Shown piece by piece: positions 4,893 to 41,711 of a stretch of 64,000 nt of DNA. The notes below the pieces were generated by a model. It did no database searches, was not told where the DNA came from, and saw only the letters and a list, made by a program, of their open reading frames with translations. The DNA comes from Neobacillus piezotolerans (GTDB taxonomy: Bacteria; Bacillota; Bacilli; Bacillales; Cytobacillaceae): positions 248,001 through 312,000 of the forward strand of contig NZ_QNQT01000001.1 of assembly GCF_003362805.1 (NCBI RefSeq). The letters are read 5' to 3'. The position numbers and the translations under genes are program-made. How positions within the stretch are numbered: position 1 is the stretch's first letter; each line of letters starts with the position of its first letter.

Positions 4893-6407
4893 TTGAACAA
4901 AAGCTTCGATGATTATTGGAGTTACCCAAGGAGGAGAGAATTGAGTCGTTTTAATAGAGAGGAATTAAAAGCTGCTGGATTTAGTGAAGACGTTTTGCCG
5001 ACAAGAGAAGAAGAAAGAAAATGGAACATTGGGAATTTTGCTTCTATATGGATGGGTGCTGTCCATAATATACCTAACTATATTGCAATCGGCGGACTTT
5101 TTGCCTTAGGATTGTCAGTTGGTCAGGTTTTTGCTGCCATTATGGTTGCCTCCCTAATAATAGCTGCAATGCTCGTTCTTAATGGCCACGCGGGCTCAAA
5201 GTATGGATTGCCATTTGCGATGCTGCTCCGTTTGTCCTTTGGAACGAAAGGCGCAATGATTCCAGGAGTATTAAGGGGAGTAATTGCGGCGATCATGTGG
5301 TTCGGTTTTCAGACCTACGCCGGAAGCCAAGCATTATCCATTTTAATCGGAAAACTTTGGCCTTCGTATTTAACGATGGGCGGAGATTGGAGCCTTTTAG
5401 GTTTATCATTGCCTGCATTACTATCCTTTTTGATTTTTTGGCTATTGAATGTTGCCTTAATTTATGGAGGTATGGGGTTCTTAGGGAAATTTTCAAATAT
5501 CCTTTCACCGCTTGTTTACATAGTTTTTGGAGGAATGGCAATTTGGGCCATTAACTTAGCAGGTGGTATAGGACCAATATTAGCTTATACCGGATCAGGT
5601 GTTGCAGGAAATAAAATGATAATCTTTATCGCTGCTGTGACAGCAGTTATTGCTGCCTGGGCTACACTGTTTGTAAATGTTTCGGATTTCACAAGGATGG
5701 CGAAGTCTACTAAGGACCAAGCAATCGGACAAACAATTGGCATTGTAGTGGCATTTTTACTATTTGCGGTTGCTAGTATTTCAATTATTGTGGGCTCCGA
5801 AATTGCCTTTGGTACACCAATTTGGAACGTACTGGATGTAGTTGCACGGTTTGATAGTACTTTTGCAATCGGTATATCAGTACTTACACTATGCTTAACA
5901 ACATTATCTGTAAATGTTACAGGAAATATTGTTCCTGCAGGTTACCAGTTGGCATCCTTATTTCCAAAAAAAATTACTTTCAAGTCCGGTGCATTGATTG
6001 CAGCATTTATTGGAATTCTTGTCATGCCGTGGAAGTTGATGGAAAACGCAACAAGTATTTTCACTTTCCTAAATATTGTTGGCGGAATTTTAGCTCCAGT
6101 AACCGGAATTATGTTAGCGCAGTATTTCATCATTTCAAAAACCAACATTGACCTGAATGAACTATATGCACCAAAGGGCAAATACAATTATAAAAATGGT
6201 TTTAATATAATTGCCATCATCACAATGATTATCGCAGGCATCCTGTGTTTGGGTGGTAATTTCCTTCCGCTTCTGAAGCCGCTCTACGATATGTCCTGGT
6301 TTGTCGGAATCATTTCGGCGTTTATTATTTATACATTGATTGAGTGGCAGAATTCAAAAGGTACTTTGCTTGAAAAGAAGCCCAAATTACATGAAGAAAA
6401 TAGTTAA
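4893..6407 (+). CDS. pucI: Allantoin permease, PucI-like (NCS1)
   Basis: About 504 residues, twelve membrane segments. It closely follows B. subtilis PucI: KWNIGNFASIWMGAVHNIPN before TM1, LNGHAGSKYGLPF, LRLSFGTKGA and the C-terminal PLYDMSWFVGIISAF. PucI takes up allantoin. Two in-frame ATGs at 4884 and 4887 lie directly on the AAGGA motif (4879-4883), so TTG at 4893, 9 nt downstream of it, is the better start. It precedes the two allantoinase genes and probably feeds them. Confidence 0.88.
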   Translation: MNKSFDDYWSYPRRRELSRFNREELKAAGFSEDVLPTREEERKWNIGNFASIWMGAVHNIPNYIAIGGLFALGLSVGQVFAAIMVASLIIAAMLVLNGHAGSKYGLPFAMLLRLSFGTKGAMIPGVLRGVIAAIMWFGFQTYAGSQALSILIGKLWPSYLTMGGDWSLLGLSLPALLSFLIFWLLNVALIYGGMGFLGKFSNILSPLVYIVFGGMAIWAINLAGGIGPILAYTGSGVAGNKMIIFIAAVTAVIAAWATLFVNVSDFTRMAKSTKDQAIGQTIGIVVAFLLFAVASISIIVGSEIAFGTPIWNVLDVVARFDSTFAIGISVLTLCLTTLSVNVTGNIVPAGYQLASLFPKKITFKSGALIAAFIGILVMPWKLMENATSIFTFLNIVGGILAPVTGIMLAQYFIISKTNIDLNELYAPKGKYNYKNGFNIIAIITMIIAGILCLGGNFLPLLKPLYDMSWFVGIISAFIIYTLIEWQNSKGTLLEKKPKLHEENS

Positions 6408-40247: not shown

Positions 40248-40320
40248 AAATTGTAATTATGGCAACGGTGAATCCAGGTAACAGTTCATTATAGGTACAG
40301 CTAGTTTGTTGCTAACCCAA

Positions 40321-40528
40321 CTTCTGACACCTATCCGGGATTTTACCTAAATCGAGTCAGAAGAACCTCTAACTTCCGACAGCTTTTCAGGATTTCGCCC
40401 TCATCGAGTCAAAAGAACCTCTAACTTCCGACAGCTTTTCAGGATTTTGCCCTCATCGAGTCGGAATTACCCCAAACTTCTGACAGCTTTTCAGGATTAT
40501 GCCCCCATCGAGTCAGTAGTTCCCCAAC
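40321..40528. repeat. Four tandem 52-bp extragenic repeats
   Basis: Units start at 40321, 40373, 40425 and 40477. Shared core: CTTCYGACAGCTTTTCAGGA, then TTTYGCCCTCATCGAGTC, then a variable part. Units two and three are nearly identical, the first and last have diverged. Across each unit junction, GTCNGAAG pairs with CTTCYGAC about 9 nt later, so each junction can form a hairpin. No coding potential. Confidence 0.85.
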
Positions 40529-40575
40529 TTTTAAATCCCTAACTTCGCACATCCTTAAATGTACTGACACATCAA

Positions 40576-40601
40576 TTAAAAGTAAAAATATTTACTTTTA
40601 A
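40576..40601. promoter_or_regulatory. Perfect palindrome upstream of HTH/F1-beta-like gene
   Basis: TTAAAAGTAAA and TTTACTTTTAA (11-bp perfect arms, 4-bp centre AATA). Further AAAGTAA and AGTAA copies lie at 40602-40653, up to the ribosome binding site. Probable autoregulatory operator of the HTH protein encoded next. Confidence 0.6.
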
Positions 40602-40664
40602 GAGTAACGAATTATTGCTTTCAAACGTAAAATAAATTACACTTAAAGTAAGGAGGGGAAAAAG

Positions 40665-41711
40665 ATGGAAGATTTAAGGTTGAATGTTTCATTGCTCCGA
40701 AAACGGGTGCCGAATTTAACGAGTGCGGCAAAGTCGATTGGGCTCCGGCCGGCGACGGTCTCAAATTTATGCACGGGAAAGATTCCGATTGGGCGTGCGG
40801 AGGTACGGACATTGGCTGCTCTCGCATCGCTGGCACAATGCAGCCTGGATGAATTGATTTTAAAAGGGGAGGCGTTTGAAATGATTGAAACGAAGATTAA
40901 AACGCTTGATTTATTCGCTCCAATTGTAAAAGGCGGGACGATTGGCCTGGTGGCGAGGCCGGGGATGGGGCAATTAGTGGTCCTTTCTGAATTGTTCTTT
41001 AGGCTAAAGAAAGAAGGGTATCTCAGCTTTGTGCTACAGCCGGAAGCGGAAGGCTATCCGGGGCTGGAGGATTTGAATGAACATGTTGATGTTATCGTTA
41101 CCTCAATCGCCGACGCGTTAAAAAAGATTTCCGAGCTTGGAAAAGACCGCGACATCATTTTTGCGGCAGATAGGTCGCATGTTTTAACAGGGGAAATCTT
41201 CGAATTGCAGGAAAAATTGCAGGATGAAGCAATCCGGACTGTCACCACCTTCCTGCTCGATTTGAAAGGGGAGGCGGTAGACGAGGAACTTCCGTACGGG
41301 CCGCTTGAAACGGTATGGAACTTCGATGCTGATCTTGCTGCAAGGTTCAGGTTTCCCGCAGTCAATCCAATCTCATCGACCTCTTCGATTCTTGAAGGGG
41401 CTTATCTTGACCAAAGCCACATTACAGTAAAGCAAAGGGCCCAAAAACTGTTGCGCCGGTACAGGGAGCTTCGTTCACTCGTGAACGTTAAGGGCATTGC
41501 GGGTATTCCTGATGCCGAAATGCAAACATACCACCGCGGTGAAAGGCTCGAGGCTTATCTAACGCAGCCGTTTTACGTTGCGGAGGCTTTTACAGGCCAA
41601 AAGGGCGTCGATGTCGAGCTGAAGGAAACAATCGAGGATGTCCGTAAAATCATTGATGGGGCTTATGACTCCAAGGAGCCGGCTGAACTGTCGTTTGTAG
41701 GAAAGCTATAG
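40665..41711 (+). CDS. XRE-like HTH fused to degenerate F1-ATPase beta-subunit-like domain
   Basis: 348 residues. Residues about 5-65 form a helix-turn-helix (LTSAAKSIGLRPATVSNLCT). Residues 74-346 align with the nucleotide-binding and C-terminal parts of ATP synthase beta: IKTLDLFAPIVKGGTIGLV (79-97), FPAVNPISSTSSIL (230-243), LLRRYRELRSLV, and LTQPFYVAEAFTGQKG (299-314). The P-loop GGAGVGKT is replaced by ARPGMGQL (97-104), so the catalytic Lys is missing and ATP hydrolysis is unlikely. The N-terminal beta-barrel is absent. Strong AAGGAGGGG site. Probably a DNA-binding regulator using the domain as a sensor or scaffold. Confidence 0.8.
   Translation: MEDLRLNVSLLRKRVPNLTSAAKSIGLRPATVSNLCTGKIPIGRAEVRTLAALASLAQCSLDELILKGEAFEMIETKIKTLDLFAPIVKGGTIGLVARPGMGQLVVLSELFFRLKKEGYLSFVLQPEAEGYPGLEDLNEHVDVIVTSIADALKKISELGKDRDIIFAADRSHVLTGEIFELQEKLQDEAIRTVTTFLLDLKGEAVDEELPYGPLETVWNFDADLAARFRFPAVNPISSTSSILEGAYLDQSHITVKQRAQKLLRRYRELRSLVNVKGIAGIPDAEMQTYHRGERLEAYLTQPFYVAEAFTGQKGVDVELKETIEDVRKIIDGAYDSKEPAELSFVGKL

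Follow-up and report, generated by a model that had tools for sequence, protein, structure and literature searches.

The gene at positions 40665–41711 of the window (the whole 64,000-nucleotide stretch of Neobacillus piezotolerans DNA analysed here) encodes a 348-residue protein in which a helix–turn–helix (HTH) domain is joined to a barrel-less domain resembling the β subunit of F1-ATPase (AtpD). We regard this protein as probably (at a probability of roughly 0.7) a one-component autorepressor whose non-hydrolysing F1-β domain serves as a sensor and assembly module. Support at the sequence level comes from the fusion itself, the loss of the P-loop, the conserved pocket, the gene-tied tandem arrays of palindromes and the arrays at hydrolase genes; we infer that the protein binds DNA and acts as a repressor, not an activator, and likewise its ligand and oligomeric state.

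Gene and domain organization

The gene and its two domains are located as follows.

40665..41711, + strand: regulator gene, HTH plus F1-β-like domain, 348 aa (open reading frame; profile and PDB matches; family alignment)
40665..40862, + strand: HTH domain, residues 1–66 (weak Pfam HTH_26/HTH_3 match at residues 6–65; 32 columns at least 97% conserved)
40878..41708, + strand: F1-β-like domain, residues 72–348, comprising the nucleotide-binding and C-terminal helical parts without the barrel

For the family alignment, 105 copies were extracted, 102 of them distinct; two short ones (L076 and L109) were dropped and the remaining 100 were aligned with the window's protein (101 sequences). Counts across these relatives are not independent of one another. 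The sequence-only reading had described an HTH followed by a stretch aligning with ATP synthase β, and Pfam, NCBIfam and PDB matches bear this out, confirming at the level of sequence similarity the fusion of an HTH to a barrel-less F1-β-like domain. The profile search that it had proposed is significant: the NCBIfam atpD profile matches with an E value of 1.8e-35 and 122.6 bits, below the equivalog cut-off of 462.85, and F1-β chains in the PDB match residues 71–117 and 173–346 (E = 2e-31). The Pfam ATP-synt_VA_C match (E = 1.4e-5) lies above its cut-off and the ATP-synt_ab match (E = 1.6e-5) below its own. The F1-α model is absent among the 16 NCBIfam models listed for the regulator, and models of FliI, type III secretion and V/A-type ATPase subunits are weak matches among those listed.

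The β-barrel had been reported as missing, and indeed the N-terminal ∼130 residues of AtpD that form it are absent from the regulator in the family alignment; the alignment with the PDB β chain begins at about residue 132 of the chain and does not cover the barrel. Much of the AtpD segment between the P-loop and Walker B is also gone. The genome's own AtpD is encoded elsewhere and is identical to the regulator at 81 of 276 aligned positions.

The HTH bears a weak resemblance to the Cro/CI type at residues 6–65 (Pfam HTH_26, E = 0.0025, 18.5 bits, cut-off 22) and contains the near-invariant motif RPATVSNLxTGK. A genome search found it once only in the window's genome. Across 120 genomes, every one of the 23 strong matches falls within an open reading frame of 349–374 residues; one 66-residue fragment and four weak matches (E = 0.006–0.009) were found besides. 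Conservation within the family is highest in the HTH, where the mean majority-residue frequency is 0.87 (residues 1–66) versus 0.70 in residues 72–348. This uneven conservation, together with the many genomes that show an array at the regulator's own gene only (see below), would suit an ordinary XRE-type autorepressor in which the F1-β part is a structural dimerization body without a ligand. We consider such a body unlikely, as 54 columns of the F1-like part are at least 97% conserved, among them new charged residues around the old active site (R98, Q103, R170, D199 and D206) and the pocket aromatics, which is more than a purely structural body should need.

The former active site and adenine pocket

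Five segments of the F1-β-like domain are compared with AtpD, with bovine residue numbers mapped onto the family by motif and a constant offset.

40953..40976, + strand: degenerate P-loop ARPGMGQL (AtpD: GGAGVGKT); A97 in 101/101, R98 in 100/101, G102 in 101/101 and Q103 in 101/101
41169..41174, + strand: Walker-B Asp169 and family-specific Arg170; Asp in 99/101, Arg in 99/101
41268..41327, + strand: family-specific motif GEAVDEELPYGPLETVWNFD, residues 202–221, where AtpD has the ADDYTDPAP loop; G202 in 101/101, D206 in 100/101
41352..41357, + strand: adenine-pocket Phe230-Pro231 (bovine Tyr345-Pro346); Tyr, Phe or Trp in 101/101, Pro in 101/101
41571..41591, + strand: adenine-pocket Phe303…Phe309 (bovine Phe418…Phe424); F303 in 99/101, Phe or Tyr at 309 in 93/101

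The roles of Lys162, Glu188 and Asp256 in F1-β follow passages of PMC4415626 and the adenine-pocket residues follow passages of PMC5608556. The loss of the P-loop lysine, already claimed from the window alone, is evident in the change from GGAGVGKT to ARPGMGQL, and the survey of homologs suggested at that time shows it to be constant, with Gln replacing Lys in 101/101 aligned sequences. The first Gly is replaced by Ala in 101/101 and the second by Arg in 100/101, while the Thr is replaced by Leu in 94/101 and retained in 1/101; the GxxxxGK[TS] P-loop of F1-β is thus not found in the family. Glu occurs in 14/101 at the position of the catalytic Glu (bovine 188), where the segment is shortened and unconserved and the alignment uncertain. 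Among the 101 aligned sequences, the STSR Arg of AtpD is present in none and the DELSEED motif is not preserved. On these substitutions, the F1-β-like domain looks catalytically dead.

The Walker-B Asp and the aromatic adenine pocket of F1-β are both retained by the family. Residues 202–221 differ from AtpD and include G212, P213, F220 and D221, each conserved to at least 97%; the near-invariant residues new to the family are R98, Q103, R170, D199, G202, D206, G212, P213, D221 and R227. Because these residues are new and nearly invariant, they suggest a site that was remodelled and not one that decayed. Sensing of nucleotides, as originally proposed, fits with the retained adenine pocket; the conserved pocket residues may reflect the fold and not a ligand.

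The presumed operator array

The region upstream of the gene contains four palindromic units, in an array that overlaps a presumed promoter.

40570..40585, + strand: degenerate operator unit P0, CATCAATTAAAAGTAA (7/10 core positions)
40592..40607, + strand: operator unit P1, TTACTTTTAAGAGTAA (pattern match)
40615..40630, + strand: operator unit P2, TTGCTTTCAAACGTAA; its first six bases are the presumed −35 box (40615–40620)
40637..40652, + strand: degenerate operator unit P3, TTACACTTAAAGTAAG (7/10 core positions)
40638–40643, + strand: presumed −10 box TACACT, inside P3 and 17 nt from the −35 box (read from the sequence)
40652..40657, + strand: Shine–Dalgarno sequence GGAGGG, touching P3 (sequence; same layout in many relatives)

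The apparent arrangement of palindrome arrays over the regulator gene's own presumed −35 and −10 boxes is new here. The sequence-only reading had placed a single palindrome at 40576–40601; a real array does exist there, but that span straddles units (40592–40607 among them) of a larger one. The units are of a 16 bp type, TTACTTTTAAAAGTAA, at least one of which lies within 260 bp upstream in 96 of 101 distinct relatives (the window not counted), and 101 upstream regions yield 242 matches versus 4.6 per shuffled set. Spacings between neighbours (n = 146) are 21–23 bp in 101 cases and 44–46 bp in 31. In the 86 of 102 upstream regions that could be anchored on the last unit, with at least 8/10 core positions as the threshold, the registers about 22, 45 and 66 bp above it are occupied in 79/86 (P2), 63/86 (P1) and 28/86 (P0), and the next in 0/86. 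The five upstream regions with no unit within 260 bp have arrays farther up: before a small open reading frame or leader (G377 and G523), or before genes preceding the regulator that encode an acetamidase/formamidase (G333 and G450) or an α/β hydrolase (G182).

In many relatives, as read from the sequence, P2 starts with TTGCTT and is followed 17 bases later, within P3, by TACTAT or a similar hexamer, and P3 runs into the Shine–Dalgarno sequence. The presumed −35/−10 pair was not among the results of a σ70 scan of the window. A palindromic operator over the gene's own presumed promoter, as is typical of XRE-type regulators, is present at the sequence level. Promoter geometry could set part of the P2–P3 spacing, which leaves P1 and P0 as the only units whose phasing is free of that constraint. 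Immediately 5′ of the operator array, a 52 bp tandem repeat (3.8 copies, 84% matches) occupies 40319–40516.

The F1-β fold operates within a hexameric ring, the crown of which is formed by the barrel. A ring on DNA, one of the early suggestions, would be an F1-β-like homohexamer (three dimers) with six HTHs on three palindromes, wrapping or holding about 60 bp and opened or closed by a ligand. The best-occupied registers are three (P1–P3), with the fourth present in 28/86; as three palindromes make six half-sites, a hexamer is attractive, and a ring would be compatible with three palindromes in phase. P1 and P0, which lie beyond the promoter core, stay in phase, and the parent F1 fold is itself hexameric. 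The regulator lacks the crown-forming barrel, however, several presumed targets have two clear units only and in the window two of the four units are degenerate; we see the ring as possible, at well under an even chance.

Association of the arrays with the gene

A pattern of two units (at most two mismatches) matches in 72/397 genomes of the order, namely in 71 of the 88 genomes with the gene versus one of the 309 without it (Fisher p = 9e-61, kinship ignored). The single match without the gene (G487) is a poor one inside an open reading frame, and the reversed pattern, used as a control, matches in 3/397 genomes. The 17 gene-bearing genomes without a match at two mismatches include that of the window. 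A stricter pattern matches in 29/397 genomes, in 24 of them at the regulator gene itself and in one at an M3 gene; the remaining four matches are poor, and three of these come from genomes that lack the gene and one from a gene-bearing genome. Its reversed control matches in 9 genomes. The first strict pattern matched in 4/40 genomes, all at the regulator's own gene. Comparative genomics, in tying the operator arrays to the gene, supports the proposal that the protein binds these palindromes.

In the window's own genome, the array pattern search found no array besides that at the regulator gene. A regulon of single sites in this genome was considered and rejected, since such sites do not rise above background: the pattern matches 5 times on the forward and 5 times on the reverse strand, the gene's own sites included, and its reversed control 5 and 9 times.

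Other presumed targets and the proposed mechanism

Seven arrays lie away from the gene, in six gene-bearing genomes. Five are next to genes for M3 oligoendopeptidases (G195, which is Bacillus suaedaesalsae, G418, G355, G380 and G083); the first four of these genes are full-length and above the TIGR02289 cut-off, with G380 alone among them passing Pfam Peptidase_M3 at 1e-4, while that of G083 is a 111-residue fragment and its array lies between two genes and could face either. The other two are in one genome (G381), one by an α/β hydrolase gene and one by an ABC transporter gene. Several presumed targets have two clear units only.

An α/β hydrolase gene lies directly downstream of the regulator in 8 of 45 loci; these hydrolases and the array-linked one belong to the same family (33–51% identity among those compared). 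In one of these eight loci (L087) the α/β hydrolase following the regulator is split into two open reading frames. Acetamidase/formamidase genes occur near the regulator in the 45 loci twice upstream and once downstream. These two enzyme types looked like the only meaningful neighbours. A conserved neighbourhood was rejected, as no cluster of neighbours exceeds 11/45 loci and mechanically called open reading frames in loose GGDEF-type groups make up the largest clusters. Through arrays and neighbours, several lineages thus connect the regulator with enzymes that hydrolyse peptides, amides or esters.

In the autorepressor model, the N-terminal HTHs would bind as dimers to 16 bp palindromes stacked in phase every ∼22 bp, and by covering the −35 and −10 boxes of the regulator gene they would hold down synthesis of the regulator. 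The C-terminal F1-β fold would no longer hydrolyse ATP (Gln in place of the P-loop Lys, no catalytic Glu segment) but, with the adenine pocket and Walker-B Asp retained, would serve to sense a ligand and to direct assembly. Once the pocket was filled by an adenine-type ligand, or by another small molecule, assembly on the array would change and repression would be relieved. These operators would also govern M3 oligoendopeptidase, α/β hydrolase and acetamidase/formamidase genes in some lineages; given operators at such genes, the output is probably the degradation of a compound with a peptide, amide or ester bond. An adenine-type ligand is our first guess and a decoy for an F1 inhibitor a bolder one. 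A combined version, in which a non-hydrolysing F1-β homohexamer with six HTHs on three in-phase palindromes is released when either an F1 inhibitor or a ligand of adenine type occupies the old pocket and hydrolases are switched on, appears doubtful.

The bolder guess would make the dead β a mimic of a target, such that binding of a natural F1-ATPase inhibitor (a peptide or other compound) switches on enzymes that destroy or export it (M3 peptidase, α/β hydrolase and ABC transporter). Most of the presumed targets hydrolyse peptides, amides or esters and one is an ABC transporter, and the effector domain is modelled on the target of an antibiotic and is not a usual sensor fold. The known targets are few, though, with none in the window's own genome, and an ordinary catabolic role suits them equally, which makes the decoy rather improbable. 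We think it very unlikely that the regulator is an adapter to the real ATP synthase, whose domain would pair with F1 α or other subunits and couple expression to F1 assembly: β homology does extend over residues 71–346, but the DELSEED region and other β features are not retained, the only array found in the window's genome is at the regulator gene, and none of the seven distant arrays faces an F1 gene among the open reading frames identified.

Comparison with known proteins

The regulator shares with AtpD homology over residues 71–346, the Walker-B Asp, the adenine pocket and the C-terminal helical part; it differs in having no barrel and no P-loop Lys or Thr, an unconserved catalytic Glu and STSR Arg, a much shortened P-loop–Walker B segment, no DELSEED and an added HTH. 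With XRE (Cro/CI)-type repressors it has in common a small N-terminal HTH and palindromic operators over its own promoter (presumed here), whereas its rotary-ATPase effector domain, its three to four in-phase operators and an HTH under the Pfam cut-offs set it apart. BirA, NadR and PutA are bifunctional autoregulators built on active enzymes. They resemble the regulator in joining an enzyme-derived fold to a DNA-binding domain and in own-gene control (presumed here), but those are active enzymes and the regulator looks catalytically dead. No described regulator of this kind was found in searches of the open-licence PMC literature.

If the model is correct, the family would represent a new effector fold for bacterial transcription factors and would show how an enzyme central to energy metabolism can lose its activity and take on a sensory role, raising the question of what ligand a dead ATP synthase site binds. 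The family is widespread in Bacillales, and its presumed operator is clear enough for immediate testing.

Distribution and origin

Relatives were found in 62/193 genomes of the same taxonomic family (E ≤ 1e-40), in 88/397 genomes of the order and, at E ≤ 1e-30, in 3/398 genomes of the phylum, the last three including the window's genome itself and one more from its taxonomic family. Some of the copies counted, a few in all, are fragments or contain stops. Between the window's gene and its nearest relative (L001), dN is 0.050 and dS 0.857, which shows, as judged from substitutions, purifying selection on the regulator. In a quick tree of 27 family rows and 25 F1-β rows, the family forms one side of a branch with a support of 100, and its stem is 4.53 changes per column long. 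An origin inside AtpD was considered; this tree, made up of family and F1-β rows, gives the family no definite place among the AtpD sequences.

A plasmid search matched 101 records, and the 20 listed comprise one family member (Paenibacillus, 54.5%) and 19 AtpD-like sequences of 26–29% identity. No family member was found in the viral contigs searched. The plasmid member (L153), annotated as 'hypothetical protein', lies at 4995–6053 of an 897 kb Paenibacillus cellulositrophicus plasmid record and has two palindromes 22 bp apart upstream; this plasmid is a possible route of transfer between orders. Second or broken copies with internal stops occur in three genomes (G226:C5, G162:C1:161943 and G419:C43), a split copy in another (G079:C1) and an HTH fragment alone in a fifth (G290:C145); such copies suggest that the family has been lost repeatedly.
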